The notes beneath the pieces were generated by a model. The model ran no database searches. It saw only the letters and a program-made list of their open reading frames with translations, and was not told the origin of the DNA. Below are positions 2,689-63,838 of a stretch of 64,000 nucleotides of DNA, piece by piece (the first letter of the stretch is position 1; every line of letters starts with the position of its first letter). Both the position numbers and the translations under genes were made by a program. This stretch comes from Bacteroidales bacterium (GTDB taxonomy: Bacteria; Bacteroidota; Bacteroidia; Bacteroidales; UBA932). The stretch is from positions 1 to 64,000 of the forward strand of contig JAEEQS010000009.1 of the NCBI GenBank assembly GCA_016285455.1, given 5' to 3'.

Positions 2689-2817
2689 TTTACTGTGTAT
2701 GTTTTAATTAAACATCAGCTGCATAGCCATTTGCGGAGGCACTGCTTTTTCCTCAGCGATGAGAGAATCTGCGTTGCGCGCACCTGGATACAGCTCCCTG
2801 CATTTTTTGCGGGGGTG

Positions 2818-2848
2818 CAAAGATATAAACATTTTTTGAACACGCAAA
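2818..2848 (-). promoter_or_regulatory. Promoter of the ribosomal protein operon
   Basis: Read on the minus strand, TTTG (2848-2845) and TATCTTTG (2825-2818) are separated by exactly 19 bp. This matches the Bacteroidota primary sigma consensus TTTG-N19-TAnnTTTG. It predicts a leader of roughly 120 nt before rplC. The leader contains one copy of the dispersed 9-mer at 2752-2760. Confidence 0.75.
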
Positions 2849-2878
2849 CAAAAAATGCTTTTTCCACCACCTGCCAAC

Positions 2879-2910
2879 AAAAAACTCCTGCCGGGATTGT
2901 CTGGCAGGAG
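2879..2910 (-). terminator. Intrinsic terminator after the LRR lipoprotein gene
   Basis: CTCCTGCC (2885-2892) and GGCAGGAG (2903-2910) form an 8-bp GC-rich stem with a 10-nt loop. On the minus strand it is followed by six T residues (2884-2879). It sits about 30 bp past the stop of the LRR gene and upstream of the ribosomal promoter, so it separates the two units. Confidence 0.8.
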
Positions 2911-2940
2911 CTTTTAATATAATGTGGAGTAATGTCGCGA

Positions 2941-5430: not shown

Positions 5431-5556
5431 TTACCAAGGAATTTCTGTAGGATCATCTTCTGGTGTTTCTGTCGGGGATTGGCAAACCAACCCTTGTACC
5501 TCCACTATCCATACTTTAGAGTGAGGAGATTCGTAATTTTTTTTCTGTGATTCCAT
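5431..5556 (-). CDS. Small protein, 41 residues, upstream of LRR lipoprotein
   Basis: An ATG at 5556 opens a 41-codon frame that starts MESQKKNYESPHSKVWIVEV and ends in PTETPEDDPTEIPW. Its TAA is immediately followed by the ATG of the LRR lipoprotein, so the two are likely translationally coupled. From memory, Bacteroidales genomes hold many short proteins with this Y-x-x-P ... VEVQG-x-x-C-x-S pattern next to surface lipoprotein genes, without a known function. No signal peptide or membrane segment is visible. Coding is supported by the coupling and the pattern only. Confidence 0.55.
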   Translation of the reverse strand: MESQKKNYESPHSKVWIVEVQGLVCQSPTETPEDDPTEIPW

Positions 5557-5696: not shown

Positions 5697-5717
5697 CAAG
5701 ACTAAATGGAGTTTTAA

Positions 5718-7181
5718 ATGACGAGTTTCAGATTCTATATATTTTTTGTGTTTGCGGCGGCATTTATAGCTGCATGCACCCATCGCGGAGAAGAAAAAAC
5801 AGGCTCAGAAGCCCATATAACGCAGCTGATCTCGGAAGCCTCGGCTGAAGTGGAAAGCCAAAGGTTTGACTCAGCGATGGTAAAAGCGATTCAGGCACTG
5901 GATCTGGCGGAAAAGAAAGGACTGCCTCTCCAGAAAGTGAAGGCTCTGGAGTGCATCGTAGGCATCGACATTATGACCAGCCGCGACTCCGCTGCTTGGG
6001 AAAAAGCCCTTCAGGCTGAGGAAATAGCCCGCAAAGAAGGCTTCAAAGATGATCTTTCCGGCATTTTGATTTCAAAGGCAAAACTGTGCTCATACGCTGA
6101 AATCTCTCCTGAGACTAGCAGAAACGATGAAGGTCTGGAATATGCCCAGGAAGCTCTCACCCTTGCAGAAGAGGCTCAAAGCATGGAAAAACAGGCAGAG
6201 GCCTGCTATGTCATAGGATCGCTTTACATCAACAAGAACCGTTGGAACGACCAGATAGATACGGCCATCTACAATACGGCTGGGCGATATCTGGCCAAAG
6301 GACAGGCTATAGCAGATACCTATGATATACCTAGGCTGAAACGCAACGGCATAATGTTCCGTTCCCGCTGGTTCCAGCAGGGAGACCGCAACGCTGAGGC
6401 CGTACAGTACTTCTCCCAGGTGCTCACAACCCTGAAAGACTCCGACCATCTGACCGCCTCCAGCCTCTACGACCGCCTGGTAAGGCTCTATACACGCTTG
6501 GGAGAAAATGAAAAGGCCCTGGAGTGCCACGATATGTACGTAAGGCACCAGCAACAGTATTTAGCTCAGAAAAACGATGAAATCCTCCAGGAAATGGAGA
6601 CCAAGTTCGAGGTGGAGAAGAAAGAGAAGGCCCTGGTAATTGGCCGTTACCGTACTGCTCTGCTCGTTCTGGCTATAATTCTCGCTCTGGCAGCTCTGGC
6701 GGCCGCATTCCGCAAGATTAGGGCTGTCCGCCATCGCAACGCAGAGCTAGCAAAGAGCAACAGCATAAAAGAACAGATTATCTCCTTCCTGTCTAATTCA
6801 CTCAGAGATCCGGAAAGCAAATACACTTCCGCCTTTGAAGCCCTCGCCGCCGAAGCTCCGGCTTTGACAGAAGAGCAGATAAGGGAAAGGTGCTGCCAAA
6901 TAACAAAGGAAAGCCATTCGCTCAGCGATGATGTTGGCAAATATCTTTCAGACCTTCTGGCTGAAAAGCGGAACAAAATCGCCGAGATGGGACTGTCTCA
7001 AAGAGAAATTGAAATCATACAGCTCTCCGCCCAGGGGCTCAAGGCTTCTGAAATTGCAGAAAAGCTATTCCTTAGCGTACATACGGTGAACACCCATCGC
7101 CAGAGGATCTACTCTAAAATGGAAGTGCGGAACATATCTGATATGCTCCGCAAATCCAAACTCCTGGGTATTATCCAGTAG
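5718..7181 (+). CDS. TPR-TM-LuxR membrane-anchored transcriptional regulator
   Basis: A protein of 487 residues with a four-part architecture common in Bacteroidota. A lipoprotein-like signal (AAAFIAACTHRG) leads. TPR-like helical repeats cover about residues 30-290. A transmembrane helix lies near 310-335 (TALLVLAIILALAALAAAF). A cytoplasmic LuxR/GerE helix-turn-helix forms the last 60 residues (LSQREIEIIQLSAQGLKASE, then HTVNTHRQRIYSKM). The family is thought to sense an envelope signal through the TPRs and bind DNA from the membrane; its targets here are unknown. It is a single gene with a TAACTTTG box upstream. One exact copy of the dispersed 9-mer lies inside (6921-6929). Confidence 0.8.
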   Translation: MTSFRFYIFFVFAAAFIAACTHRGEEKTGSEAHITQLISEASAEVESQRFDSAMVKAIQALDLAEKKGLPLQKVKALECIVGIDIMTSRDSAAWEKALQAEEIARKEGFKDDLSGILISKAKLCSYAEISPETSRNDEGLEYAQEALTLAEEAQSMEKQAEACYVIGSLYINKNRWNDQIDTAIYNTAGRYLAKGQAIADTYDIPRLKRNGIMFRSRWFQQGDRNAEAVQYFSQVLTTLKDSDHLTASSLYDRLVRLYTRLGENEKALECHDMYVRHQQQYLAQKNDEILQEMETKFEVEKKEKALVIGRYRTALLVLAIILALAALAAAFRKIRAVRHRNAELAKSNSIKEQIISFLSNSLRDPESKYTSAFEALAAEAPALTEEQIRERCCQITKESHSLSDDVGKYLSDLLAEKRNKIAEMGLSQREIEIIQLSAQGLKASEIAEKLFLSVHTVNTHRQRIYSKMEVRNISDMLRKSKLLGIIQ

Positions 7182-7213
7182 GAGTCAGTAATCTCTTCAA
7201 TAATCGCTGAGGA

Positions 7214-9380: not shown

Positions 9381-9401
9381 ATCTTCCTCAGCGATTAGAT
9401 T

Positions 9402-9906: not shown

Positions 9907-11418
9907 TTAAATCTCCCAGGTGGTGGTGCCGTCTTTGTTGTCCTTGAGCTGAATGCCGAGGGCTTTGAGGGTGTCTCTGATCTGGTCGCTCTTGCCCCAG
10001 TCCTTGGCTGCTCTAGCGGCCTTCCTGTCCTCGATGATGTAGTTCATCAGACCGTCAATTACCTTTGCAGAACCACCCTGGCCCTCAGAGGATTGGGCGG
10101 CTTCTTCATCAACGAGGCCGAGAATGTCTGTGACAACATCTTTGAACAAGCTGGTTATTGCATCCTTTTCAGGTTTGGCAACAGAGAGCCTGCCTTCTTT
10201 TATGTTGTTGACAACCTTCACAAGTTCATAAATATAGGAAATTGCAACAGGTGTGTTCATATCGTCGCAGAGGGCCTCAAAAATGTTCTCCCTTATTTTC
10301 TTTATATCCTCAGCGATGCCTTCACTTGACTTTTCAGATTCCTTTAAAGACTCAGCATCCTTGACTGCCTGCATCAGGCGCTTTAGACCTTTTTCCGCTG
10401 CTTGAAGAGCGGCATTTGAGAAGTCCAAAGTTCCGCGATAATGAGCCTGAAGGATAAAGAAACGCACCGTCATAGGAGTGTAGGCCTGCTCCAGGTTAGG
10501 ATTAGAGCCGCTGAAAAGCTCATCCAGAGTGATGAAGTTGCCAAGAGACTTGCCCATCTTCCGTCCTTCTATGGTAATCAGGTTGTTGTGCATCCAGTAC
10601 TTGACGCCTCCGATTCCCCTTTCGGCAAAGTTCTGAGCCATTTCGCATTCGTGGTGAGGGAACATAAGGTCCATTCCGCCGCCGTGAATATCGAATTCCT
10701 TGCCCAGGTACTTTTCTCCCATAGCGGAGCACTCCATATGCCAGCCCGGGAAACCATCTCCCCACGGAGAAGGCCAGCGCATAATATGCTCAGGGCTAGC
10801 CTTTTTCCAGAGAGCAAAGTCTGCAGAAGAATGTTTGTCTTCCTGCCCGTCAAGTTCACGGGTGTTATGGAGCATTTCATCTAGATTTCTTCCGCTCAGA
10901 GCACCGTAATTATACTTCTTGGCGTATTTCTGCACATCAAAATAAACGGATCCGTTGCTGATGTAGGCATAGCCGTTTTCCAGTATCTTCTTGATGAACT
11001 CTATCTGCTCGATTATATGGCCGGAAGCGTTAGGCTCTATGCTTGGCGGAAGCACGTTCAGCTTTGCCATCGCCTGGCGGAAATGCACGGTATATGTCTG
11101 TGCAACCTCCATTGGCTCAAGCTGTTCCAGGCGAGCTTTCTTGGCTATCTTGTCCTCTCCTTCATCCGCGTCGTGCTCCAGATGCCCCACATCAGTAATG
11201 TTGCGAACATAGCGCACCTTGTATCCGATATTCCTCAGCAGGCGCACCAGAACGTCAAAAGTCACGCCTGGTCTTGCATGCCCCAGATGAGGATCTCCGT
11301 ACACGGTAGGACCGCACACATACAGTCCAACTCTTCCAGGGGTTATAGTTTCAAGCCTCTCCTTTCTTCTGGAGAGAGTATTGTAGAGATAGAATTCCCT
11401 TTTGATTTCTTCGCTCAT
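9907..11418 (-). CDS. cysS: Cysteinyl-tRNA synthetase
   Basis: A class I aminoacyl-tRNA synthetase of 503 residues that charges tRNA-Cys. It shows the zinc/Cys-binding [16 protein letters not shown] with its HIGH-like HLGH, the zinc ligands in WHMECSAM and [14 protein letters not shown], and the KMSKS equivalent KMGKS. The C-terminal tRNA-binding region is complete, ending [10 protein letters not shown]. The ATG at 11418 is the only sensible start. It abuts the T-run of a hairpin (11419-11449), so cysS either has a promoter inside ssb or is controlled by readthrough. Confidence 0.97.
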
Positions 11419-14302: not shown

Positions 14303-15037
14303 ATGAAAAGATTATTGCTTATAACTGCTTTTATGATTGCCTTTGCGGCAATGGTTTCCGCCCAGAACACCAAAAAGCAGGACTGGGCTCAATTCTATGT
14401 ATTCCAGAAAGACAACGCAAGAATCGCTGAGATGACAAAAGACACGCCTAAAGGAAAATGCCCAAAGTGCGAATGGAAAAACCGCAAAATCAAGGCAGTG
14501 CTTATGGGGGATTCCATCACTGAACTTTGGTGGGATCTGGATTCCGCCTTCTTCAAGGAAAACAATTTTGTAGGAAGAGGCATTTCCGGCCAGACCACAA
14601 GTGAGATGCTGGTACGTTTCAGAAGAGATGTGCTGGACTTAAATCCTCAGTACGTGTTCATTATGGCCGGCACCAACGACGTGGCGGAAAACAACGGAAA
14701 AATCACTCTTGAAAATATCCTTGGCAATCTCAAATCTATGGTGGAACTGGCCAGGGCACACAAGATCAAGCCTATACTCTGCTCTGTTCCTCCTGCAGCA
14801 GGATTTGTATGGAGAAAGGATCTCAAGCCGGCACAGGACATAATCAAGCTCAACGGAATGATTAATGAATATGCCCAGAGCATAGGAATCCCGTACATAG
14901 ACTACCACTCCATACTCAAAGACGAAAACGGAGGCCTTCCAAATAAGTATTCTAAAGACGGAGTGCACCCTATAATAGAAGGCTATAAAGTTATGGAAGG
15001 ATTATTGCTAGAAAGATTCAAGGAGATAGACAAGTAA
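14303..15037 (+). CDS. Secreted SGNH/GDSL-family hydrolase
   Basis: A protein of 244 residues. The ATG at 14303 gives MKRLLLITAFMIAFAAMVSA, a clean signal peptide cut before QNTKK. The SGNH blocks are all present: GDSITELW (block I Ser), GRGISGQTT (II, Gly), AGTNDV (III, Asn) and DGVHP (V, Asp and His). It should act on periplasmic or exported esters such as acetylated glycans or lipids. The substrate cannot be told. It is first in a run of three exported-protein genes. Confidence 0.9.
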   Translation: MKRLLLITAFMIAFAAMVSAQNTKKQDWAQFYVFQKDNARIAEMTKDTPKGKCPKCEWKNRKIKAVLMGDSITELWWDLDSAFFKENNFVGRGISGQTTSEMLVRFRRDVLDLNPQYVFIMAGTNDVAENNGKITLENILGNLKSMVELARAHKIKPILCSVPPAAGFVWRKDLKPAQDIIKLNGMINEYAQSIGIPYIDYHSILKDENGGLPNKYSKDGVHPIIEGYKVMEGLLLERFKEIDK

Positions 15038-15048: not shown

Positions 15049-15468
15049 ATGAAAAAGATCTTTGCAATATTTGCCTCAGCGATGATTCTGCTGGCTCTGC
15101 CGTCAAAGTCTGACGCGCAGACTATCCGCGACCGCTACGGCGCACAGATAGGCACCATCCAGAGCGACGGCACAATCCGTGACAAATACGGCTCGCAGGT
15201 AGGAAAGATAGACCGCGACAACGCAGTCCGCGACAAGTACGGCGCCCAAATCGGGAAGATTGACTCAGACGGCACCATCCGAGACAGATACGGTTCACAG
15301 GTAGGCCGTGTTTATTCAGACGGAGTTGTGCGAGACAAATACGGGGCCCAGATAGGCAAGGTAGACAAGGACGGTACCATCCGAGACCGTTATGGAGCAT
15401 CTATCGGAAGCGCTAGGGGCGTTCCTGTAACCTGGGCCGGCCTCTACTTCTTCTTCAACCTCAACTAA
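15049..15468 (+). CDS. Secreted repeat protein of the 5-fold beta-flower type
   Basis: A protein of 139 residues with a signal peptide ending SKSDAQ. Five full tandem 17-residue repeats and a partial sixth follow, on the pattern TIRDRYGAQIGKIDSDG. The dominant features are RDxYG, IG and a DG turn. This matches what I recall of Bacteroidota beta-flower proteins, where five repeats close into a ring. The function is unknown. The repeats are 51 bp in DNA and partly diverged. A 9-mer copy lies in the signal-peptide coding region. Confidence 0.7.
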   Translation: MKKIFAIFASAMILLALPSKSDAQTIRDRYGAQIGTIQSDGTIRDKYGSQVGKIDRDNAVRDKYGAQIGKIDSDGTIRDRYGSQVGRVYSDGVVRDKYGAQIGKVDKDGTIRDRYGASIGSARGVPVTWAGLYFFFNLN

Positions 15469-19802: not shown

Positions 19803-20900
19803 ATGGGAAGATCTAGGCGCAGAAAAGGAGTTCGGAGGTTTTTCGGGATAACATTCCGGATGGTTCTGGTTATTGCCGCAGTATGCCTTCTTCTTGCGTA
19901 TATTTCCTCTTACATAGACCCGGCTAAATTTTCCGTGCCGATATTTTTCGGCTTGTATTTCATTCCGATTCTAGCGGTTAATCTTCTGCTTCTTTTGATA
20001 GCGCTTATTTCGCGGAGCAAAAGCGCCTGGATTACCATTATCGCCCTGCTTCCGGCCCTGCTGTTTGCGGAAAGGTTTGTGCGTTTTGGCGGAGAAAAAG
20101 ACGCAGACGGAACCAAAATCAAGATAGAAACTTACAACGTAGGGCTTTTCCGCCTGTCTAAGAACAGAATGCCCTACAAGGCAACTATGGACAGTATCTT
20201 CTGTCAAATAGGCAACTGCGATGCGGATATTGTCTGCCTCCAGGAGGTTTATCTAGACAGTCTCCAGGCTGCTAAAACACTCCTCCCTCAATACAGATGG
20301 AGAACCTATCATCTGATTTCACACCAAAACGGAAAGAGAAGCGGTAACATCATTTTCAGCCGTTACGAGATAACGAAAGGCGGAGTTATCAAGTTCAAGT
20401 CAAGTACCAACCTTTCTTTGTTTGCAGATATTGTGGTGGAGAAAGACACTTTGAGAGTTTACAACAACCATCTCCAGTCCTACGCCATTTCCCCTACCGC
20501 CCTCATCCAGAAAATAAGAAGCAAGAAAACCTTCTCGGAAGAAGTCAGCAACGAGATTATCAGCGTTCACAACAAGTTCCGCAGTTCTGTCATCCAGCGC
20601 TCCCGCCAAGTGGGTGCAGTACTGGACAACATCAACAAGAGCCCCTATCCTTATGTTGTTTGCGGAGATCTCAACGATATTCCTATGAGCTATACCTATC
20701 ACAGGCTTTCGTATGGAAGAAAAGATACTTTCAAGGAAGCCGGCCACGGTTTTTCCGCAACTTTCTCTGTACTTTGGCCGCTGTTCCGCATAGACTATGT
20801 CTTCATACCTGAAGACTGGGCGGGAGTTAGCCACAAGACTATCAGATGCAATTTTTCAGACCACTATCCGGTAATCGCTGAGTTCAGCACAGGAAAATAA
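19803..20900 (+). CDS. Membrane-anchored endonuclease/exonuclease/phosphatase family protein
   Basis: A protein of 365 residues. Two or three N-terminal transmembrane helices (residues about 15-95) precede an EEP-fold catalytic domain: DIVCLQEVYL (Glu), CGDLNDIP (Asp/Asn) and SDHYPVIAEF (His). It is probably periplasmic or facing the membrane. Nuclease, sphingomyelinase-like or inositol-phosphatase activity are all possible. It shares an operon with mutL and the rhomboid gene, which need not mean a repair role. Confidence 0.85.
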   Translation: MGRSRRRKGVRRFFGITFRMVLVIAAVCLLLAYISSYIDPAKFSVPIFFGLYFIPILAVNLLLLLIALISRSKSAWITIIALLPALLFAERFVRFGGEKDADGTKIKIETYNVGLFRLSKNRMPYKATMDSIFCQIGNCDADIVCLQEVYLDSLQAAKTLLPQYRWRTYHLISHQNGKRSGNIIFSRYEITKGGVIKFKSSTNLSLFADIVVEKDTLRVYNNHLQSYAISPTALIQKIRSKKTFSEEVSNEIISVHNKFRSSVIQRSRQVGAVLDNINKSPYPYVVCGDLNDIPMSYTYHRLSYGRKDTFKEAGHGFSATFSVLWPLFRIDYVFIPEDWAGVSHKTIRCNFSDHYPVIAEFSTGK

Positions 20901-24421: not shown

Positions 24422-24658
24422 ATGAAAAAGATGATAATGATAGGAGGCAAGATGGCAGACGCCATCAGATGGGACGGGGTAAACATCGCTGAGATAAGAG
24501 AACTTGCCAAAGACAAACTCCTGGAACCTCATCTTTGCATGGGGTTCCTATATCTTTTCATCGCAACACAAGACGGCATATCACAGTGCAACGAAGGCGA
24601 CTGGGTAGCAAAAGACCAGGACGGCAATTGCCACGTTCTCAAGGCAGAAGAAATGTAA
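24422..24658 (+). CDS. Hypothetical small protein between acyltransferase and tsaE
   Basis: A protein of 78 residues that I do not recognise as a named family. The C-terminal EGDWVAKDQDGNCHVLKAEEM resembles the end of small phage-type proteins whose motif is GDWI-x-x-G-x-G-x-x-Y/H. It is 10 bp after the acyltransferase gene and 5 bp before tsaE, and normal in codon use, so it is likely a real gene. A 9-mer copy encodes IAE here. Confidence 0.55.
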   Translation: MKKMIMIGGKMADAIRWDGVNIAEIRELAKDKLLEPHLCMGFLYLFIATQDGISQCNEGDWVAKDQDGNCHVLKAEEM

Positions 24659-49543: not shown

Positions 49544-51235
49544 ATGGAAAAGATAAGAATATACTGCACCAACAACAAGCAATACTATGAGGTGGAGCCC
49601 CGCACTACGCTAAAGCAGCTGCTCCAGATTGTGGATTATGACTGGGAGAATATGGATGTTCTGGCGGCATATGTCAACCACGATCTCAAAGAGCTGGGGT
49701 TTGAGCTCCTTCTTGCTTCCACCGTACATTTTGTCACCTACCGCGACGCAGACGGCAGAAGATGCTACAGCCGTTCTCTCAACTTCCTGTGCCAGAAGGT
49801 GATTGGAGAGCTTTTCCCGGACCGTGTCCTCTGTATGGACTATCATCTTCCGAACGGGCAGTACGGAGAGCTGAGAATGAGGGAAGACTTCACCAAGACA
49901 GTTCCGATGACTGAAGAAGAACTGGGAGCTGTGAAAAAGAAAATGTGGGAGATTGTCAAAAAAGACATTCCATTCATCAAGACCAAAAGGACCAACTCTT
50001 CTGCTTCCTCTCTTTTCCGCAGCCACGGCCAGGAATCCAAGGCCCGCCTTGCCGAGAGTATGGGAGAGTATTTTGTAACCGTTTATTATCTGGATGGTTA
50101 TGGCGATCTGTTCTACGGCCCTCTGGTTTATTCTACCGGTCAGCTGGACCGCTGGAGCATTAAACTCTACAGCGACGGCTTCTGCCTCCAGTCTCCGGAA
50201 CCGTGGCATCCGTACGACCTCCCTCCGCAAAGGTATCAGAAAAAGCTAGCTGAGATTTTCGAGGAGTACAGCAACTGGTGCAACGTCATAGGAGCCAGAG
50301 ACATAGCAACCATCAACGAAGCCATAGAAGAAGGCAAGGGAGCGTTGGGCATTTCGCTTGCCGAAGCGCTTCACGAGCGCAAATACGCTATTATCGCAGA
50401 CAAGATAAAAGAAAGGAGCCGCGACGTGAAACTGGTGCTGATTGCCGGCCCTTCTTCCAGCGGCAAGACCACTACGTCCAAGAGAATAGCCCTTCAGATG
50501 AAAGCCCTTGGTCTCAATCCGGTAGTTGTGGCTATGGACAACTATTTTGTAGACAGGGAACTTACACCTAAAGACGAGAAGGGAGAGTATAATTTTGAGA
50601 GTATTTACGCCCTCAATCTGGATATGCTCAACGACCATCTGAACAAGCTGATGGCTGGAGAAAGCGTTACTCTTCCGATTTTTGATTTCAGCACCGGAAA
50701 GAGTTCTCTTAACGGGCAGACTATAAAGATGAAAAAAGACGATGTCCTGATTATGGAAGGCATCCACGCCCTTAATCCGGAACTGACAGAAAAAATCGCT
50801 GAGGAAAGGAAGTTCAAGGTTTATGCTTCAACACTTACTTCTCTTTCTATAGACGAGAACAACTATATCTCCACAACAGACAACCGTATGCTCCGCAGAA
50901 TGGTCAGAGACAACTACTTCCGCGGATATACCGCAGAAGATACAATCAACCGCTGGCCTAGCGTTATTGCAGGAGAAAGGAAGAACATTTTCCCTTATCA
51001 GGAAAACGCAGACATTATGTTCAACTCCTTCCTGCTGTACGAGCTCCCGATGCTGAAGTACTTTGCAGAACCTCTTCTGAGAAGAATTACCCCTATGAGC
51101 AAGGCATACTCTGAAAGCCTGAGGCTGCTCAACTTCCTGAGCCGCATTATTGCTCTCGGACCTGAAGAGCAAAAAGCCATTCCTCCTACTTCCGTAATGA
51201 GGGAATTCATCGGAGGCAGTGTTTTCACTTATTGA
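49544..51235 (+). CDS. Nucleoside kinase with ThrRS-like N-terminal domains
   Basis: A protein of 563 residues. The N-terminal TGS-like and ThrRS second-additional-domain-like region covers residues 1-260 (VHFVTYRDADGRRCYSRSLN, MGEYFVTVYY). A uridine-kinase-like P-loop domain follows from about 280 (GPSSSGKTTTSKR, VVAMDNYFVDRE, MEGIHALNP). This fusion is common in Bacteroidota and Firmicutes; the substrate is presumed to be a nucleoside. It lies 5 bp after uvrA. Confidence 0.9.
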   Translation: MEKIRIYCTNNKQYYEVEPRTTLKQLLQIVDYDWENMDVLAAYVNHDLKELGFELLLASTVHFVTYRDADGRRCYSRSLNFLCQKVIGELFPDRVLCMDYHLPNGQYGELRMREDFTKTVPMTEEELGAVKKKMWEIVKKDIPFIKTKRTNSSASSLFRSHGQESKARLAESMGEYFVTVYYLDGYGDLFYGPLVYSTGQLDRWSIKLYSDGFCLQSPEPWHPYDLPPQRYQKKLAEIFEEYSNWCNVIGARDIATINEAIEEGKGALGISLAEALHERKYAIIADKIKERSRDVKLVLIAGPSSSGKTTTSKRIALQMKALGLNPVVVAMDNYFVDRELTPKDEKGEYNFESIYALNLDMLNDHLNKLMAGESVTLPIFDFSTGKSSLNGQTIKMKKDDVLIMEGIHALNPELTEKIAEERKFKVYASTLTSLSIDENNYISTTDNRMLRRMVRDNYFRGYTAEDTINRWPSVIAGERKNIFPYQENADIMFNSFLLYELPMLKYFAEPLLRRITPMSKAYSESLRLLNFLSRIIALGPEEQKAIPPTSVMREFIGGSVFTY

Positions 51236-52586: not shown

Positions 52587-53873
52587 TTAATCCTTGATAT
52601 CGTACTGGCGGCGGGAAGGGAAACCCAGAATCACCTCGGTGAACAAGCCTATCTGGCTGTCCATCTTCACGTAGCCGCCAAAGAATTGCATAAGCTGATA
52701 GACATAGTTGAGGCCTATTCCGTGGCCGGAAATGCCCACGGTGTTTTCTCCCCTTTCAAACTTTTTGAAAAGGCGTTTGGAAGCCTCTGGAGAAAAGCCG
52801 GATCCATCATCTTTGAGCCGTAGTTCCGTAATTTTCCCGCGTCTTACGCTGCGAACGAGTATGTTAACCGTCTTTCCGGAATACTTTATTGAATTGTCTA
52901 TCAGATTGTCTATGATTTCAGTAAGGTAAAGGCGGTCCGCTATCAGCCATTTTTCCTGACTAAGGTCCGCGGAAAAATTCACTTCTTTCTGAGCCGTTGG
53001 ATAAAGGGCGTCTAGTCTGGCTTTTATGCCGGAAAAGAATTCTTCCAGGTCTATCTTCTCATAGACGAACTTCAGTTTCTTGTTGTCTACTTTGGCAACG
53101 TTGATGACCTTTTCGCAAATGCGGTTCAGATGGCCGCATTCGTCATCCAGAATCTTGAGCTGCTCCCTTGTATCGGGATCAGAATTGATTGCCGAATTGT
53201 CTTTGAAATCCTCAGCGATTATCATTATGGAAGACAGTGGAGTCTTCATATCGTGAATCATCGCGTAGGTATGGTCTTTTCTCAGGTTGTTTATGAAAGT
53301 CACACGGCCCAGGGTGCGGATCATTTTCCAAAGGCACCAGATAACGAACAGCACAAGCAGCAGCGAGAAGATTATCAGCATCTTAATGCTTGGAAGTATA
53401 GCGCTGTAGGGATTTGTAATCTCAGCTGCCACGCCTCTTGAAAGATCCGGGGAAGTTGGAACGATGTGGGTGATCATAGAAGAGAAAGAGGTCTTTTCCA
53501 TAACCGGATCGATGAGGAAATCATCGGCCGTGCGGTAGAAGTTGGTGTCGTTCTGAGTCTCGAACACCTTGAAGCTCAGATTCTGGAGCTCCTTTTCCGC
53601 AAGGTTTTCGGCAAAGGCAGCCCTGATGCTGTCCAGGTTGACGCTGCTTCCGTTCATTTCCAGATAGTCTCTGATTCCCACTAGCGCCCCCGTAGTATCC
53701 AAGCGGCCGAACCGGGAAAGGGACTCCTCTTCCACAGCGTTGCGGAAACACTCGTCAACTGTAGTGTAAAGATTCTTTTCCAGAGAGTTGTAAACCTTCA
53801 AGAGCAAAATCCACTGCAGCGGAAGCAGGGCAACCGCGGCGGCAATGGCTATTATCTTGAAATACTGTTTCAT
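52587..53873 (-). CDS. rprX: Sensor histidine kinase (RprX-like)
   Basis: A protein of 428 residues. Two transmembrane helices (about 7-27 and 155-175) flank a periplasmic sensor. The H-box is MIHDMKTPLSSIM, and N and G boxes are NLIDNSIKYS and GHGIGLNYVYQL. It starts one base after the adenosine kinase stop and shares its operon. It contains one 9-mer copy (53211). Confidence 0.9.
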   Translation of the reverse strand: MKQYFKIIAIAAAVALLPLQWILLLKVYNSLEKNLYTTVDECFRNAVEEESLSRFGRLDTTGALVGIRDYLEMNGSSVNLDSIRAAFAENLAEKELQNLSFKVFETQNDTNFYRTADDFLIDPVMEKTSFSSMITHIVPTSPDLSRGVAAEITNPYSAILPSIKMLIIFSLLLVLFVIWCLWKMIRTLGRVTFINNLRKDHTYAMIHDMKTPLSSIMIIAEDFKDNSAINSDPDTREQLKILDDECGHLNRICEKVINVAKVDNKKLKFVYEKIDLEEFFSGIKARLDALYPTAQKEVNFSADLSQEKWLIADRLYLTEIIDNLIDNSIKYSGKTVNILVRSVRRGKITELRLKDDGSGFSPEASKRLFKKFERGENTVGISGHGIGLNYVYQLMQFFGGYVKMDSQIGLFTEVILGFPSRRQYDIKD

Positions 53874-53874: not shown

Positions 53875-54864
53875 TTATCCCTCAGCGATAATTCTAGCTA
53901 CTTCTTCCTTTATGTTTTTCCAGGTTGTTCCGTCTAACTTGGTTCCCACAACTTCCACAATCCTGGACGATACGTAAGAGCCTATGCTTCCGCAGATATC
54001 CAGAGGAAGATCCTGGGCAAAACCGTAAAGGAAACCGGCGGCGTAAAGGTCTCCTGCACCGGTAGCGTCTACTGCATTGGCCAGGAAAGGATCTATTCTG
54101 TAAATCTTTTGGCCGCTTTTAACCAGAGAACCTTCTTTTCCCACCTTTACGACTGCTATTTTGCACAGTCTGGAAATGTCTTCCAGCGCCTCCTGCGGCC
54201 CCTTGCCTGTAAAGGCCTTGGCCTCAGTCTCGTTGGCAAAGACAATGTCCACGTATTTTTCAACTATCTCGTGGAGAAAATCATAATTGCTTTCAACTAC
54301 GTTATAGCTTGCAAGGTCTATTGATATAGTCATTCCCAACTGGGCGCAAATCTGAACGGCACGGCGAACAAGATCGTGGTTCTGAACCAGATAGCCCTCT
54401 ATATGAAGAATGTCGTACCCCGCAAAAAAGTAATCTCTCAGATCATCTGCCCCAAGCTCCAGGGCCGCGCCCATATAGTCTGCAAAAGTGCGCTCTGCGT
54501 TTGGCGGAGTTATAAACACTATGGCTCTTCCGCTGGCGTCTTTTCCCGTCAACAGATGCGGACGGATGCCTATGCTCTCCTGGCTCTCCTTGAAAAGGCG
54601 GCCCGGGGCATCGTCTCCAACCATTCCCACAAAGGCGCTGCGCATTCCCAGAATGGCCGCGCCTGCAATGGTATTGGCTGCGCTTCCTCCCGGAACAATT
54701 TGTATCTTAAGGTCTTTAATATCTTCCCATATTCCGTTTGCCGTCTGGCGGTCAACCCATTGCATACTGCCTATAGGAAGATTGTATTTTTTCAGGATGC
54801 TCGTATCCGGCATCACTGCCAGAACATCAGTAAGAGCATTGCCGATTCCTATGATAGATTTCAT
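53875..54864 (-). CDS. Adenosine kinase (PfkB family)
   Basis: A protein of 329 residues. The ribokinase-fold signatures are IVPGGSAANTIAGAA near residue 55 and VDATGAGDLYAAGFLYG near 265 with the catalytic Asp. Adenosine is the likely substrate by overall similarity (GIGNALTDVL start, FANETEAKAFTG). It is first of the operon with rprX and rprY, a link that recurs in Bacteroidales. A 9-mer copy ends the gene. Confidence 0.9.
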   Translation of the reverse strand: MKSIIGIGNALTDVLAVMPDTSILKKYNLPIGSMQWVDRQTANGIWEDIKDLKIQIVPGGSAANTIAGAAILGMRSAFVGMVGDDAPGRLFKESQESIGIRPHLLTGKDASGRAIVFITPPNAERTFADYMGAALELGADDLRDYFFAGYDILHIEGYLVQNHDLVRRAVQICAQLGMTISIDLASYNVVESNYDFLHEIVEKYVDIVFANETEAKAFTGKGPQEALEDISRLCKIAVVKVGKEGSLVKSGQKIYRIDPFLANAVDATGAGDLYAAGFLYGFAQDLPLDICGSIGSYVSSRIVEVVGTKLDGTTWKNIKEEVARIIAEG

Positions 54865-54942: not shown

Positions 54943-55968
54943 ATGGCAGAGGGAAAAACCAAACGGTTTTCCGCAAAATATATAATCCAATATGTCCTGA
55001 TGCTGGCCTTGGCGGTCGTGCTTTTGTATTTCAGTTTCAGGAAAATAAGCTGGGGAGAATTTGTGGCTGGCCTATCCACTTGCCGGTGGGGCTGGATTGC
55101 CGCCGCCGTTGCAACAGGCTTTTTCGAATACCTGATCCGAGGAGCAAGATGGAAGATGCTGCTGGGCCAGATAGATCCGGATTCCTCCGTATGGGCTTCA
55201 TATCACGGCGTTTCCATAGGCAACCTTGCAAATTTTGCCTTCCCAAGAATCGGTGAAGTGGCCCGTTGCGGCGTGGTCAGCACCCTTAAGAAAAACACCA
55301 CATTTGAAGGCGCCGTGGGTACCGTAGTGGCAGAAAGGGCTTGGGATCTGTTCTGCCTGGTTTTGATAGGAGTCAGCTTTGCTTTTCTATGCTGGAACGA
55401 ATTCGGGGAATTCTTCTCCAACCAGATGATAGATCCCGCTTCAGGAAAATTCACATCCTCATCGCTGAGGCTGGTTTTCATAATTCTGGGTTCAGTGGTT
55501 CTGCTTGCCATTTTGACTTACGCTTTTCGTAAAACAATAGCACAGACCAAGATAGGCTCCAAAATAATAGGCTTTCTTTCAAATATGTGGCAGGGAATCA
55601 AAGCCGCCTTCAAGATGAAGCGCAAATGGCTTTTCTTCCTCTACACTATTCTTCTTTGGGGAAGTTTCTATGCTACGAGCTACTTTACGATTGAAGCTTT
55701 CCCTGCTCTGGAGGGATTGGGTTGGAAAGATGCTCTTTTCCTTATGGTTGTGGGCAGTTTCGGCTGGGTGATTCCTGTTCAGGGAGGAATCGGGGCCTAC
55801 CATTTCATCATAGCTTTAGCGGCTTCCGAAGTATATGCCGTGCAATGGAACGACGGCGTTGTGTTTGCCACTATAAGCCATGAGTCCCAGGCTCTTTCAA
55901 TGATTCTGTGCGGCGTGGTTTCTCTGATTTACTATGCCTGGTACAAAAGAAATATTACAAAACAATGA
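54943..55968 (+). CDS. Flippase-like LPG-synthase-TM (YbhN/UPF0104) membrane protein
   Basis: A protein of 341 residues from the ATG at 54943; the longer upstream frame is antisense to adenosine kinase. About eight transmembrane helices are seen. The family motifs GEVARCGVVSTLKKNTTFEG with VVAERAWDL and FGWVIPVQGGIGAYHF are clear. Family members are linked to lipid or polyprenyl-glycan flipping. Its stop overlaps the next start (ATGA). Confidence 0.88.
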   Translation: MAEGKTKRFSAKYIIQYVLMLALAVVLLYFSFRKISWGEFVAGLSTCRWGWIAAAVATGFFEYLIRGARWKMLLGQIDPDSSVWASYHGVSIGNLANFAFPRIGEVARCGVVSTLKKNTTFEGAVGTVVAERAWDLFCLVLIGVSFAFLCWNEFGEFFSNQMIDPASGKFTSSSLRLVFIILGSVVLLAILTYAFRKTIAQTKIGSKIIGFLSNMWQGIKAAFKMKRKWLFFLYTILLWGSFYATSYFTIEAFPALEGLGWKDALFLMVVGSFGWVIPVQGGIGAYHFIIALAASEVYAVQWNDGVVFATISHESQALSMILCGVVSLIYYAWYKRNITKQ

Positions 55969-58934: not shown

Positions 58935-58946
58935 ATCTGTCTTCTT

Positions 58947-60599
58947 TTATTTCCTTGTCCAGCCGCCAAATGCCTTCTCCTCGCCTTCTCCGAACTCCTG
59001 GTCAAATCCTGTAACCTTGCCGTCTTCCATCCTGAAAGTCAGCTCAAAGCCGTGCCCGTCTGAACGGAATACATAGGTTGTGCCGCTCTTGTGCTTGAGT
59101 TCTTTCTTCCACTCTTTCTTGTCTGCATACTTCACAGGAATGCGGTAAAGTTTTCCTTTCTCGTATGTGATGATAATGTCTCCGAACGGAGCTTCCTTGG
59201 TGTAGGTTCCGGCAAAGATGCTCTTGTCGGCAACTTCCGGAAGAACCTCAGGTTTCGGCTTTGCTTTCTGCTCGGCGATGGCCTTGTCTCTGGATGTGGT
59301 GTAGTCTTTCCAGTACTCGGCGCTGTAGTCTCTGAGAGGCTCCTTGGCTCCTCTGACAAGGTCAATCACCCTTCTCATAATAGCATATCTCGGATTTGCT
59401 CCAACCTCGCAGTTGAGCAGCACGCATCCGGCCAGTTTCAGTTCAGGAACATAGTAGCAGATGGCTGTTACTCCCCAGGAAGTTCCCGTGTGGAAGTAAA
59501 GCTTGTAGTCGTGGTTCTGCTCTATGAACCAGCACATTCCGTAAAGTCTCATCATCGATGAGTCTTGGCTTACAACTGTGTATCCGCGGTGCAGAGGAAG
59601 CATTGCCCTTCTCGGCATCACGAAAGTTGTATCAACCACATTACCGTTACCGTCGCGATTGACAACATAACCGTTGTTGCAGTGGAACTGGGCATACCTG
59701 ATCAGGTCTTCCACATTGGAAACAAGGCTGCCGGCCGGACCGATCACTGTCAGCCAGTTGAGAGCCTGCTCGTCTCCGTAAAGAGGAAGCACGGCAACCT
59801 TTCCGCCTCCTGCATAGGTGTAGTCGTGAGGAGTAACCACATCCTTTGCAGCAGCAAAGCCGTCTGCATTCATCGTGGATGATTTCATTCCCAGAGGCTT
59901 GAACACTCTTTCACGCACATTGTCTTCCCAGCTCTTGCCGGTGTATTTCTCTATCAGCTTGGAGCATACAACAAATGTGATGTTGTTGTAGTCATAGCCG
60001 CTGCGGAAACTGAATCCAGGTTTCAGGAAGCCCAGAAGCTTGTAGGTGTCTTCCCTGTCATAGCCCAGGTTTCCGAAGTAGGTTCCGGCTTCATCCACAA
60101 GACCTGTTGAGTGCAGAAGGGCGTCTCTAACGAGCATGTTGTTTGAAACATAAGGATTGTCCTTGAACATCTCAAAGTCCGGCAGCAGTTTCTTTACTGT
60201 ATCTGTCCACTTGAACTTGCCCTCGTTAACCAGCTGAGCCATCACCGTTGCCGTAAAGGACTTTGACACAGAGGCTATCTGGAACATGGAAGAGGTCTTT
60301 ACCGGGTCTCCCGGCTTGTTGACAACAGGCTTCACTCCGGCCTGTGTGAACTTGCACTCATCGTACTTTACTCCTGCAAAGCCCACTCCGTCCGCAGGCC
60401 TGAGTTCCTTCACTCCGTAAGCCTTCATAAAGACAACCTTGTTGTCAACCGACACGGCAACGGAAGCTCCCGGAATTTGCCAGGTTTCCATCACCTGCTT
60501 TACGTAGTTGTCAACCTTGTTTGCAAAATCAGAGTCCTGTGCGGAAAGTGGAGCCATAAGGCCCAGCACTATCGCTGAGAAAAGAAATAATCGTTTCAT
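58947..60599 (-). CDS. Secreted beta-lactamase-family serine hydrolase
   Basis: A protein of 550 residues with a signal peptide (LGLMAPLSAQ). The SxxK motif is in IASVSKSFTATV and the YxN motif in SGYDYNNITFV; HTGTSWG stands in the third-motif place (KTG-like). A C-terminal DUF3471-like beta domain follows (IFAGTYTKEAPFGDIIITYE). It is probably a D-Ala peptidase or esterase rather than an antibiotic resistance enzyme. It is first of a two-gene unit with the GATase. A 9-mer copy lies in its signal-peptide region. Confidence 0.88.
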   Translation of the reverse strand: MKRLFLFSAIVLGLMAPLSAQDSDFANKVDNYVKQVMETWQIPGASVAVSVDNKVVFMKAYGVKELRPADGVGFAGVKYDECKFTQAGVKPVVNKPGDPVKTSSMFQIASVSKSFTATVMAQLVNEGKFKWTDTVKKLLPDFEMFKDNPYVSNNMLVRDALLHSTGLVDEAGTYFGNLGYDREDTYKLLGFLKPGFSFRSGYDYNNITFVVCSKLIEKYTGKSWEDNVRERVFKPLGMKSSTMNADGFAAAKDVVTPHDYTYAGGGKVAVLPLYGDEQALNWLTVIGPAGSLVSNVEDLIRYAQFHCNNGYVVNRDGNGNVVDTTFVMPRRAMLPLHRGYTVVSQDSSMMRLYGMCWFIEQNHDYKLYFHTGTSWGVTAICYYVPELKLAGCVLLNCEVGANPRYAIMRRVIDLVRGAKEPLRDYSAEYWKDYTTSRDKAIAEQKAKPKPEVLPEVADKSIFAGTYTKEAPFGDIIITYEKGKLYRIPVKYADKKEWKKELKHKSGTTYVFRSDGHGFELTFRMEDGKVTGFDQEFGEGEEKAFGGWTRK

Positions 60600-60649: not shown

Positions 60650-60668
60650 TCTTGGGAAGATAATAGTT

Positions 60669-62045
60669 ATGGCAAAGGTCAAGAAAGCGTTTTTCTGCAA
60701 CAACTGCGGTTATGAGAGTCCGAAATGGCTGGGGCAGTGCCCTTCCTGCGGACAGTGGAACACTATGGTGGAGGAGGTGATAAGCCGCGGCGAAGGCCCT
60801 TCTTCCAAGAGTTATGCTGCTCCTGGCATTAACGCAAAGCCACAAAAACTGTCTGAAATCGAGGCCAGCGGCAATGAGGAAAGGATTTCTTTCGGCTCTC
60901 TGGGCGAGCTGGACCGTGTCCTTGGCGGAGGTATGGTAAAAGGCTCCCTGGTTCTGGTCGGGGGAGAGCCGGGCATCGGAAAATCCACCCTCAGCCTGCA
61001 GATTCCGCTTTCCAACCCTAACCTTAAAACTCTCTATGTATCAGGCGAGGAGAGCGCCCGCCAGATAAAGATGAGGGCGGAAAGGCTTGGCGGTATCCAC
61101 GACGGCTGCTACATTCTTCCTGAAACCTCCCTTGACAACATAATAGACCAGGCAAAGGCAATAAAGCCTGAGCTGATAATCATAGATTCCATACAGACCA
61201 TCTTTTCCACAGCTGTGGAATCATCTGCCGGTAGCGTATCCCAGGTTAAGGAATGCGCCGTTTCTCTCCTGAGGTTTGCCAAAGAGACCAACACCCCTGT
61301 AATCATCATCGGCCACATCACCAAAGACGGCACCATTGCCGGCCCTAAGGTTCTGGAGCATATAGTAGATGTTGTTCTCCAGTTTGAAGGAGACACAAGG
61401 CATTCCTTCCGCATTCTCAGAAGCATCAAAAACCGCTTCGGGGCTTCTGCCGAACTGGCTGTGTACGAGATGACTGGAACTGGCCTCAGAGAAGTCCTCA
61501 ACCCTAGCGAGATGTTCATCTCCACCCACGAGGAAACCCTCAGTGGCAGCGCTGTTGCCGCAATGCTGGATGGCACCCGCCCGTTCCTGATTGAGGTGCA
61601 GGCTCTTGTCTCAACCGCCGCATACGGCACTCCTCAGCGTTCCGCCACCGGCTTTGATGTCAGAAGGCTCAATATGCTGCTGGCAGTCCTGGAAAAGAGA
61701 GTCGGCTTCAAGATTGGCGCAAAGGATGTCTTCCTGAATATTGCCGGAGGCATCAAGGTTGCCGACCCGGCCTGTGACCTTGCCATCATAATGAGCATTC
61801 TGTCTTCCAACTTTGATGTTGCCATAAGCCAGAAATATACCTTTGCGGCAGAAGTGGGCCTCAGTGGAGAAATAAGACCTGTTTCCCAGATAGAGAGAAG
61901 AATCGCCGAAGCGGAAAAACTCGGTTTCGAGAGAATCTACATCTCCTCCTACAGCCAGAAAGAAGAAAAGCAGCACAAGAAGATCAAAGTCATCCGCGCC
62001 TCTTCAATTCCTCAAATCGTAAGAGATATTTTCCAGGAAGACTGA
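60669..62045 (+). CDS. radA: DNA repair protein RadA/Sms
   Basis: A protein of 458 residues from the ATG at 60669. The C4 zinc finger is CNNCGYESPKWLGQCPSCGQ. The RecA-like ATPase has Walker A GGEPGIGKST and the RadA-specific KNRFG, followed by a C-terminal Lon-like domain (FLNIAGGIKVADPACDLAII). RadA is a branch-migration helicase used in recombination repair and, in naturally competent bacteria, in integration of incoming DNA. Confidence 0.96.
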   Translation: MAKVKKAFFCNNCGYESPKWLGQCPSCGQWNTMVEEVISRGEGPSSKSYAAPGINAKPQKLSEIEASGNEERISFGSLGELDRVLGGGMVKGSLVLVGGEPGIGKSTLSLQIPLSNPNLKTLYVSGEESARQIKMRAERLGGIHDGCYILPETSLDNIIDQAKAIKPELIIIDSIQTIFSTAVESSAGSVSQVKECAVSLLRFAKETNTPVIIIGHITKDGTIAGPKVLEHIVDVVLQFEGDTRHSFRILRSIKNRFGASAELAVYEMTGTGLREVLNPSEMFISTHEETLSGSAVAAMLDGTRPFLIEVQALVSTAAYGTPQRSATGFDVRRLNMLLAVLEKRVGFKIGAKDVFLNIAGGIKVADPACDLAIIMSILSSNFDVAISQKYTFAAEVGLSGEIRPVSQIERRIAEAEKLGFERIYISSYSQKEEKQHKKIKVIRASSIPQIVRDIFQED

Positions 62046-62049
62046 TTAT

Positions 62050-62922
62050 ATGAAAACCGCACGCCACATACTGCTGTCTTTCATTGTAACAATTGTTTTT
62101 GCTGTCTGCTCCAAAGCTCAGACAAAGGAAGGGTTTACTACACTTATAGAAATCTTCCGGCAGGCAGAAAGAATCAATGGTCACTATATCCCAAAAGATC
62201 TGGAGGACGCTGTCAGATGTCTGGATTCCCTGCTCACAGATGAAGAAAAAGACGCTTTTGGCTATAACGATATAATTGATCAAAATGGCATGTGGTTAAG
62301 AAACAGATGGCTGTTGTGGTGGAATTCACGTCTGGCTGTCTATTTTAAAAGCATAGGTGTGAGGGAGCCTGAAAACATGTCCTGGATTATCGAAGAGGCT
62401 TATCATAACTGGAAAAAGAACAAAGATATCGGGCTGGAAAGAATTAAAGAGGATAACAGAAACCATATCCTTCCGGATGATTTGAAAAAGAAATATGAGA
62501 AATTTGAAAATATGGGATTAAGCAATCTTTGGGACGACCGCGAACTTGAGTATCATGGAAACCGCAACCGTCCCATATTTGAAAAAGAAGGGCTGAAAGT
62601 GGGGACCCGGCTTTATTACATTTTTCCTTTTGGATGCACAACTGAAAAAGAAGAGAATATCCTGCATAGAACCGGTTCCTACAAGGATATGACGGAAGGT
62701 ATTATAACCGAGATTCAGTATTTCCCGCCCAGGATCAAAGTAAAACTGACTAAATCCACTTCAAGGCATGGAATAATAGTCTTTGATGAAAACGGTCCTT
62801 TTGACAATCTGCACAAAAGCCGGGATTTCAAAATATTCAATGTCAAAAGCCGCAATATATATCTGCTCGGTAAAGGCAAAGAATTCTGGTTCTCCTTAAA
62901 AGGAGCCTGGGAGGTATATTGA
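62050..62922 (+). CDS. DUF6794-domain exported protein
   Basis: A protein of 290 residues with a signal peptide (MKTARHILLSFIVTIVFAVC). The region YIPKDLEDAVRCLDSLL, then GMWLRNRWLLWWNSRLAVYF and ENMSWIIEEAYHNW matches what I recall of DUF6794, whose function is unknown. The C-terminal half is beta-rich and lysine-rich. It is 4 bp after radA and more AT-rich than radA. Confidence 0.65.
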   Translation: MKTARHILLSFIVTIVFAVCSKAQTKEGFTTLIEIFRQAERINGHYIPKDLEDAVRCLDSLLTDEEKDAFGYNDIIDQNGMWLRNRWLLWWNSRLAVYFKSIGVREPENMSWIIEEAYHNWKKNKDIGLERIKEDNRNHILPDDLKKKYEKFENMGLSNLWDDRELEYHGNRNRPIFEKEGLKVGTRLYYIFPFGCTTEKEENILHRTGSYKDMTEGIITEIQYFPPRIKVKLTKSTSRHGIIVFDENGPFDNLHKSRDFKIFNVKSRNIYLLGKGKEFWFSLKGAWEVY

Positions 62923-62938
62923 TCTAATTGCTATCATA

Positions 62939-63838
62939 TCATAAGTCTCTCCTCGAAAAGGCAAAGCGGCTGCGGCCGGAAAGGTCTTCCAGGATGCTTA
63001 TATTCTGGAAGTTTTTCTTTTTCAGCATCTGCTCTATTTTATCGGCGAATAGAGGGTTGATTTCAAAGTAGAGAAGGCCGCCTGGCGTGAGGAGTTCTTT
63101 GGCAATCTCGGCGATTTTATCGTAGAACAGAATCGGATTGCTGTCCGGAACAAATAGGGCTTCCTTTGGCTCGAAGTCCAGCACGTTTTTGTGCATCAGT
63201 TCCTTTTCTTTCTCAGCGATGTAAGGAGGGTTGGAGACGATTACATCGAGTTTTCCGATGAAAGACTTCAGTGCAAGGAAATCACCATTCAATACATCAT
63301 ATTTAAAGAACATCGGCCAGCGGCTGGAGTATAGGAGTTTTTGACTCTTGGCGTATTGAAGGGCCGTGTCTGATATGTCACATCCGTAAGTTTCAAGAGT
63401 AATGGTTTCAGAGAGCCTCTTGTGGAGAGTCCAGGCTATGCAGCCGCTGCCCGTGCAGATATCGAATATCTTGAACGGAGCAACTTTAGGTTTGTTCTGA
63501 GTATTCTTCAGATCTTTCAAATCGCTGAGGATATGAGTTACCAGTTCCTCTGTTTCAGGCCGTGGAATCAGGACTCCGTGGCCGACCTTGAACTTTTCTC
63601 CGCAGAAATACTCAAAGCCGGCAATATACTGGACCGGTTCACCGGAAGCCAGACGCTCAATGACATCAGAAGGGTTCAAAGCGGCAGGAATCACTTCTTC
63701 CGGATATGTGAGCTGATGAGTGCGGGAGATGTTGAAGATGTCTTCAAGAGCTCTTGATGCAAGAGAGGCCGCTTCCTCTTTACCGTAGAGCGGAAGCAGC
63801 CTTTTCTTGCAGTCATCTATGAACTCTCTGATTGTCAT
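62939..63838 (-). CDS. prmC: Release factor glutamine methyltransferase
   Basis: A protein of 299 residues from the ATG at 63838 (MTIREFIDDCKK), which overlaps the stop of the upstream gene (ATGA). It methylates the GGQ glutamine of RF1/RF2. The motifs IPRPETEELV, IFDICTGSGCIAW (SAM site) and VSNPPYIAEKE (NPPY) are complete. Two 9-mer copies lie inside (63212, 63521). Confidence 0.95.
   Translation of the reverse strand: MTIREFIDDCKKRLLPLYGKEEAASLASRALEDIFNISRTHQLTYPEEVIPAALNPSDVIERLASGEPVQYIAGFEYFCGEKFKVGHGVLIPRPETEELVTHILSDLKDLKNTQNKPKVAPFKIFDICTGSGCIAWTLHKRLSETITLETYGCDISDTALQYAKSQKLLYSSRWPMFFKYDVLNGDFLALKSFIGKLDVIVSNPPYIAEKEKELMHKNVLDFEPKEALFVPDSNPILFYDKIAEIAKELLTPGGLLYFEINPLFADKIEQMLKKKNFQNISILEDLSGRSRFAFSRRDL

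Follow-up and report, generated by a model that had tools for sequence, protein, structure and literature searches.

Does a short DNA word that recurs throughout a bacterial genome mark that genome's DNA for uptake by its own species? The word in question is the 9-mer CTCAGCGAT, and it was noticed in a stretch of 64,000 nucleotides from an uncultured, rumen-type Bacteroidales bacterium (assembly GCA_016285455.1, contig JAEEQS010000009.1, positions 1 to 64,000), referred to here as the window. An original prediction, made from the window alone, proposed that the word was a DNA uptake-like signature. The genome-wide excess of the word, its lack of polarity, and the dialects found in related genomes supported this proposal at the level of a candidate. 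We estimate a probability of about 0.65 that CTCAGCGAT is the species' own dialect of a DNA uptake-sequence system in Bacteroidota, a system without the known pilin receptor.

Results

CTCAGCGAT is in excess throughout the genome

The window contained 24 exact copies of CTCAGCGAT (13 on the plus strand and 11 on the minus strand) compared to 0.69 expected, and the maximum in 100 dinucleotide shuffles was 4. Ranked by excess, it was the first 9-mer in the window. Thus, the strong excess that had been reported earlier was confirmed, and the reported figures (23 copies, 12 plus and 11 minus, versus about 0.5 expected) needed small corrections. The whole genome (2,151,071 bases in 25 contigs) contained 625 copies, 317 forward and 308 reverse, and the reversed motif that served as a control was found once. 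The Markov check that had been suggested pointed the same way: 140 copies were found in 448 kb of the genome, versus 3.4 expected under an order-3 model. Because the excess was present throughout the genome, the CTCAGCGAT signal was not a local effect. An Rfam scan of the window detected two tRNAs and nothing else.

Exact and one-mismatch copies together numbered 59 in the window compared to 15.4 expected, which overturned the earlier estimate that one-mismatch variants were near expectation (about 13). In the 448 kb, the excess of single-base variants was mainly at position 4 (G, 61 observed versus 2.1 expected; C, 33 versus 2.9; T, 28 versus 3.7). Positions 1, 5, and 9 showed a smaller excess, positions 2, 3, 7, and 8 showed nearly none, and there was weak information in the base 3' of the motif and in T-rich bases 5' of it. 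The variant spectrum is graded and near-consensus, around a rigid core.

Most copies were located in coding sequence. In the window, 19 of the 24 copies were in our set of open reading frames (ORFs), all of them in codon phase 0 or 2, and the other 5 were outside of it; the set was built with an overlap filter that removes some real genes, and 4 copies were clearly intergenic, as the copy at 53881 sits in an ORF of 329 amino acids. In 668 kb of the own genome, 173 of the 187 exact copies were scored as coding, compared to about 5 expected from codon usage. Each of the five stop-free frames was enriched 22- to 96-fold, with 49 copies versus 1.47 expected, 35 versus 0.51, 65 versus 2.69, and 22 versus 0.23 in four of them, and 2 versus 0.09 in the fifth, in which the enrichment rests on those 2 copies only. 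The other 14 copies were scored outside ORFs (9.8 expected, p = 0.18), an upper limit, as some genes are lost to the ORF filter. As had been argued, protein sequence did not explain the excess. The argument had cited all three codon phases and three intergenic gaps; the window itself yielded two phases and four intergenic copies, and the additional frame was found in the 668 kb.

In four contigs of 64 to 200 kb, the numbers of plus and minus copies were 30 and 27, 23 and 16, 17 and 25, and 13 and 11, for totals of 83 and 79. Within these contigs, the equal orientation speaks against a Chi-like or KOPS-like signal (KOPS, FtsK-orienting polar sequences), as the original prediction had maintained. 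Of the two outcomes that were to count against the prediction, near-expected numbers beyond the window and a strong strand bias, neither was seen, the latter within long contigs. Its statement that gaps never exceed about 6 kb was correct for the window (largest gap, 5.8 kb) but not for the rest of the own genome, in which the largest gap was 22.8 kb.

Related genomes carry related motifs

The first survey of CTCAGCGAT covered 61 genomes, 37 of the same genus and 24 from other families of the order, and later counts covered 39 genus genomes (numbered with a G below). Eleven of the 37 genus genomes had at least 100 copies: the own genome (625), G028 (543), G011 (407), G032 (376), G021 (338), G029 (329), G004 (326), G017 (322), G027 (289), G003 (263), and G014 (168). 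Five had 40 to 76 copies, and 21 had fewer than 25.

An unsupervised word count in five genus genomes without CTCAGCGAT identified another motif, TCCCGACA, which gave a weak signal in one of them, G002. Thirteen of the 39 genus genomes had 200 or more copies of TCCCGACAR, from 922 in G010 to 219 in G022, with nearly equal strand totals (e.g., 373/366 and 449/473). None of these 13 strong TCCCGACAR genomes was among the 11 strong CTCAGCGAT genomes, and the own genome had 18 copies of TCCCGACAR versus 38 of the control. TCCCGATRG reached at least 95 copies in 12 of the 39 genomes (390 in G010, 249 in G034, and 216 in G061). The dialect of G008 was ACAGCGATRG, with 235 copies of ACWGCGATR versus 12 of the control, and that of G024 and G036 was TCGCGATR. 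In the case of G035, ACTGCGATAG was found 5 times in 80 kb versus 0.04 expected, and its whole-genome count of 61 was unremarkable since G020 has 70. Some genomes, such as G010 and G034, had two motifs; G002, G015, G020, and G031 showed merely a weak TCCCGACAR excess and no clear dialect, and no dialect was assigned to G033 and G062.

A count of all TC-N(1-2)-CGA-[TC] words revealed a common layout in which the spacer and the last base vary, and most dialects fit TC-N(1-2)-CGA-Y. G008 and G035 deviated at the first base, with AC in place of TC ahead of the CGAT half. The comparison with relatives that had been proposed thus showed that members of the genus bear shifted versions of the motif, and no other observation points more strongly to a recogniser that co-evolves with it.

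A ComEC tree was built quickly from 30 genomes and rooted at the midpoint; in it, the CTCAGCGAT genomes clustered together. The TCCCGATRG genomes, the mixed genomes, and a pair of TCCCGACAR genomes (G034 and G001) adjoined this cluster, and the remaining TCCCGACAR genomes were located across the root from it. Read from this tree alone, the arrangement suggests that the dialect changed stepwise and with a direction.

Additional words were over-represented in three of the genomes. ACCGGCGATG was also in excess in G008 (loci L030-L033), and AGTGCTCATG in G012 (L022-L025) and CTGCGTGGAC in G025 (L026-L029) looked like separate dispersed or local repeats.

Outside the genus, the 24 genomes from other families, which were mostly larger, contained 0 to 39 copies of CTCAGCGAT. 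Several of them exceeded the reversed control (e.g., 31 versus 4 and 29 versus 2), and a mild excess beyond the genus is possible. We also analyzed 69 loci of other Bacteroidales from the gut and rumen, which were reached via the outer-membrane protein family of an operon described below (the best 80 of 347 relatives); they were placed outside the genus on the basis of 57 to 63% identity, and 68 of them had sequence after masking. In these 888 kb, CTCAGCGAT was found 12 times versus 6.5 expected (1.8-fold), compared to 187 versus 4.9 in the own genome. The other words were 0.7- to 2.2-fold (CTCBGCGAT, 52 observed versus 24.2 expected; TCCCGACAR, 11 versus 15.0; TCCCGATRG, 9 versus 12.9; ACWGCGATR, 30 versus 26.3; TCGCGATR, 34 versus 43.0). 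A further 9-mer considered in these loci, CCAGTCCCA, was rejected as conserved coding sequence, mostly from one peptidase gene adjoining the locus.

Putative uptake genes and a candidate receptor

ComEC and DprA were each identified in 38 of the 39 genus genomes. The PF00437 family (pilus and type II secretion ATPases) was above the cut-off in none of the 39 genomes, 31 of which had weak partial matches; pilins themselves were not searched.

A search for ComEA-type helix-hairpin-helix (HHH) domains located a protein of 533 amino acids in the own genome (contig C9, 183954-185555, minus strand), referred to here as the HHH-barrel protein. It has an apparent signal peptide, as judged by eye, and an HHH domain at residues 56 to 117 (E = 2.8e-5). 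The remainder contains no membrane-helix window and has 23 amphipathic 10-mers compared to 16.1 in shuffles, a number reached by 4 of 1,000 shuffles; an outer-membrane barrel is predicted for this part. The protein was found in 38 of the 39 genus genomes and diverges quickly: the matched part was 54% identical between the own genome and G004, and the outer-membrane protein of the operon described below was 91% identical in the same pair. PDB searches gave weak matches, the best of which was to ComEA (E = 0.37 when the own protein was the query and 0.004 for the family profile). With no type IV pilus ATPase detected, the HHH-barrel protein is our tentative candidate for the receptor, with the odds somewhat against it.

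Proteins from 27 of 30 loci were aligned; L301, L325, and L327 were excluded because they were cut or had no usable full frame, and eight further genomes had a match without a locus. The NCBIfam comEA model matched 8 of the 27 proteins weakly. A [DG]GLH[ND]T loop was present in nine, from six strong and three weak TCCCGACAR genomes, and absent from 16, none of which came from a strong TCCCGACAR genome. In a tree of the protein, CTCAGCGAT genomes were placed in two groups, one with the own genome, G017, G032, G021, G011, and G029 (support 99) and one with G003, G027, and G004 together with G028, G033, and G036 (support 98), in which the placement of G028 could be a long-branch effect. The tree of the gene adjoining the HHH-barrel gene, which was found in 11 of 16 genomes, instead joined the own genome with G004 (support 96) and G017 with G027 (support 90), and the ComEC tree likewise joined the own genome with G004 (support 96). 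The pairs own/G004 and G017/G027 were thus discordant between the barrel tree and the neighbour-gene tree, and the disagreement of the ComEC, barrel, and neighbour trees, all of them quick trees, may reflect recombination between species.

The ratio of two-base to one-base spacer excess, calculated by sites, was 2.23 in the own genome, 2.26 in G017, 1.52 in G021, 2.08 in G029, and 1.94 in G011, compared to 1.0 in G004, 1.24 in G027, 0.41 in G003, 0.87 in G028, and 0.17 in G036 (about 23 kb each for G029, G011, G003, and G028; 60 kb for G021 and G036). This contrast was picked after the own genome and G004 had been seen, and as a test G017 and G027 were then sampled at 200 kb each, although 22 kb of the G027 sequence had already been inspected. 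Fisher tests on raw site counts, which include background, gave 9e-8 for own/G004, 3e-5 for own/G027, 0.011 for G017/G027, and 2e-4 for G017/G004 across the barrel groups, and 0.25 for both own/G017 and G004/G027 within them. The nucleotide identity of the own genome was 84.9% to G027 (121 kb), 81.9% to G004 (74 kb), and 81.2% to G017 (60 kb, a different region). In the two discordant pairs, the results are suggestive of a spacer preference that follows the type of HHH-barrel protein and not the adjoining gene. On these two contrasts, the barrel protein is favoured as the factor that would set specificity.

A nuclease operon does not by itself set specificity

The own genome also contains an operon (C9:64389-70620; L133:4389-10620) that encodes a secreted-type DNA/RNA endonuclease, a protein of the endo/exonuclease/phosphatase family, an outer-membrane-type protein with a CarboxypepD_reg domain, and a lipoprotein with DUF5689 and a weak OB-fold match. 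Its outer-membrane protein was found in 15 of the 39 genomes, 14 of which had an excess of CTCAGCGAT or TCCCGATRG; the fifteenth, G062, had no assigned dialect. None of the 13 strong TCCCGACAR genomes encoded the protein. It had 347 relatives, of which the best 80 were from gut and rumen Bacteroidales. Because strong TCCCGACAR genomes lack the protein, and because it occurs beyond the genus in loci with no strong motif excess, the operon alone does not set specificity.

Longer DUF5689 proteins with another layout were found in six more genomes, including three strong TCCCGACAR genomes (G012, G018, and G022). G020 (L144:8847-16434) and G022 (L149:8516-16068) contain a different set, in which a DUF5689 protein is followed by two proteins that were named by eye, a long carboxypeptidase-regulatory-like outer-membrane-type protein and a BACON-like surface protein.

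Copies in the window

The positions of the copies in the window are shown in Table 1. The Mg-chelatase/ChlI-type gene is presumably a member of the ComM/YifB family, which has a role in transformation. The mutL gene of the window contained no copies of CTCAGCGAT.

Table 1. Copies of CTCAGCGAT in the 64-kb window and a gene of interest that contains one of them
Feature	Position	Strand	Location
CTCAGCGAT	2752..2760	+	between ORFs
CTCAGCGAT	5870..5878	+	LuxR-type regulator ORF
CTCAGCGAT	6921..6929	+	same LuxR-type ORF as the 5870 copy
CTCAGCGAT	7203..7211	-	between ORFs
CTCAGCGAT	9387..9395	+	between ORFs
CTCAGCGAT	10309..10317	+	coding
CTCAGCGAT	14423..14431	-	coding
CTCAGCGAT	15075..15083	+	coding
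CTCAGCGAT	20874..20882	-	coding
CTCAGCGAT	22506..22514	-	coding
CTCAGCGAT	24485..24493	-	between ORFs
Mg-chelatase/ChlI-type ATPase gene	27926..29515	+	one CTCAGCGAT copy within
CTCAGCGAT	28354..28362	+	within Mg-chelatase/ChlI-type gene
CTCAGCGAT	33733..33741	+	M13 peptidase gene
CTCAGCGAT	37322..37330	+	coding
CTCAGCGAT	37605..37613	-	coding
CTCAGCGAT	42580..42588	+	TPR protein gene
CTCAGCGAT	47127..47135	-	uvrA
CTCAGCGAT	50795..50803	-	coding
CTCAGCGAT	53211..53219	+	coding
CTCAGCGAT	53881..53889	+	within 329-aa ORF 53875-54864 (minus), removed by the overlap filter and hence scored outside ORFs
CTCAGCGAT	55461..55469	-	coding
CTCAGCGAT	60571..60579	-	beta-lactamase-fold ORF
CTCAGCGAT	63212..63220	+	prmC-type gene
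CTCAGCGAT	63521..63529	-	same prmC-type gene as the 63212 copy

Discussion

The genome studied here has a degenerate TC-N(1-2)-CGA-Y motif in genome-wide, non-polar excess, and related dialects are present in the same genus. If CTCAGCGAT functions as an uptake sequence, a sequence-specific surface receptor would bind extracellular DNA that bears the motif, the bound DNA would cross the inner membrane via ComEC, and DprA and RecA would handle the incoming DNA, which would then recombine. Preferential uptake of tagged DNA would lead to a build-up of tagged alleles, and a change in the receptor would cause the genome to drift toward a new dialect. Membership of CTCAGCGAT among the uptake sequences is not established, because no pilus-based receptor like that of the known systems turned up and preferential uptake is only proposed.

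Several observations weigh against an uptake function. The copies were spaced at random (coefficient of variation 0.96 versus 1.02 in simulations, p = 0.24) and gave no indication of the regularity that selection might leave. Copies of known uptake sequences often occur in inverted pairs near gene ends. Here, close pairs were rare: the 162 copies in the four contigs included 7 pairs within 150 bp, 5 of which were oppositely oriented, and none had starts nearer than 48 bp. Thus, the inverted pairs seen with DNA uptake sequences (DUS) and uptake signal sequences (USS) were not a trait of these contigs. Nor was there clear conservation of the copies at their positions. Relative to G004, 6 of 20 own copies were intact, compared to 28% of control 9-mers, and 2 of 16 were intact in eleven smaller, partly overlapping loci; retention was higher relative to G021 (4 of 9, compared to 20% of control 9-mers), on just 9 copies. 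Retention at about background fits drive with turnover, but other explanations would account for it as well.

The genes provide further points on the same side. ComEC and DprA occur widely, and both match Bacteroides ihuae among the control genomes, so their presence is little proof of an uptake system. The HHH domain in the own protein scored 24.6 bits, under the Pfam cut-off of 27 (29 bits in another search), and its outer-membrane barrel is predicted from sequence only. The loop is no clean marker, as it had a divergent form in the mixed-type G013 and in the unassigned G062. The spacer contrast is modest, partly post hoc, and limited to two discordant pairs compared by raw counts. In addition, the one-base-spacer class holds the palindrome ATCGCGAT, with 39 sites versus 2.2 expected in the 668 kb, and this palindrome might be a second signal of its own and not a spacer variant.

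An alternative that we consider unlikely but worth serious attention is that CTCAGCGAT is an iterated motif like HIP1, dense for reasons other than uptake because it is the target of a DNA methyltransferase or a chromosome-organising protein. HIP1 of cyanobacteria is a highly iterated short palindrome in coding DNA. Copy number, coding location, and missing polarity would look alike in the two cases, the ATCGCGAT sub-class is palindromic, and in the larger comparison the turnover of copies was close to background. In contrast to HIP1, the main motif here is no palindrome; moreover, it tolerates a one- or two-base spacer, and it differs by small steps between related species, as uptake dialects do. 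A polar signal of the Chi or KOPS type, which would serve recombination or a segregation motor, would likewise be short, frequent, and non-palindromic, but the even orientation within contigs makes this explanation highly improbable. The balanced whole-genome strand totals of TCCCGACAR agree, though totals alone cannot rule out polarity.

Constraint on proteins or codons, such as repeated LSD or IAE peptides, would account for the mostly coding location and for the predominance of phases 0 and 2. On both strands, however, every frame without a stop was enriched (in one case on 2 copies), and 14 of 187 copies were scored outside ORFs, which leaves this explanation with a negligible probability. 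It is also very unlikely that the operon of nuclease, CarboxypepD_reg, and DUF5689 genes is the determinant of specificity, a candidate that we disfavour. The association with CTCAGCGAT or TCCCGATRG excess in 14 of 15 operon genomes speaks for it. Riemerella anatipestifer is reported to need a pair of CarboxypepD_reg and DUF5689 genes to be transformed (PMC8459023), and we liken the two pairs to each other by domain names. On the other side, the outer-membrane protein is missing from 13 of 13 strong TCCCGACAR genomes and has relatives in the 69 non-genus loci, in which the motifs are at most about two-fold in excess. The operon could have an accessory or nutrient role, or it could supply a part of an uptake system that does not confer specificity.

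An uptake-sequence system can be compared to known cases. The closest description in the literature searched is that of Neisseriaceae DUS (Frye et al. 2013, PMC3630211), which come in eight dialects; two of these can share a genome, and one (wadDUS) has an extra base. The receptor in Neisseriaceae is ComP. The abundant short motif, the conserved core, the species dialects, and the presence of two dialects per genome are shared with the motifs described here, and the wadDUS insertion resembles the one- and two-base spacers. The Neisseriaceae system differs in sequence and phylum and in copy number (943 to 5918 copies there versus 625 here). In addition, in our genomes no type IV pilus ATPase was found, inverted pairs were few, and uptake is only proposed. 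Pasteurellaceae USS are similar in their 9-base core and in their hundreds or more copies, and unlike in the motif. USS flanks are weakly T- or A-rich, comparable to the weak T-rich flank here, and the USS uptake machinery is pilus-based, whereas here no pilus ATPase was above the cut-off. R. anatipestifer also belongs to the Bacteroidota and has ComEC and DprA, as well as an HHH protein and a CarboxypepD_reg/DUF5689 pair; unlike here, no uptake sequence is mentioned in the available sections of that report (PMC8459023). Among the open-access papers that our searches listed, none reported an uptake sequence in Bacteroidota, as judged by title and start of abstract; most subscription papers are outside of this coverage.

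A broader and rather doubtful proposal is that pilus-less Bacteroidota evolved an uptake-sequence system of their own, in which a ComEA-type domain fused to a barrel would serve as receptor and gate. Swaps of this gene between species would drag genomes across dialects, and the dialects would be mating barriers among rumen species.

Self-recognising uptake sequences have so far been described for Neisseriaceae and Pasteurellaceae. If CTCAGCGAT is indeed an uptake sequence, it would represent a further independent origin, in an abundant phylum of the gut and rumen, and self-tagging of DNA would be something that arises repeatedly. The several dialects in one genus would then provide a natural series with which to learn how Bacteroidota move DNA across the outer membrane, and they could predict gene exchange between rumen species.

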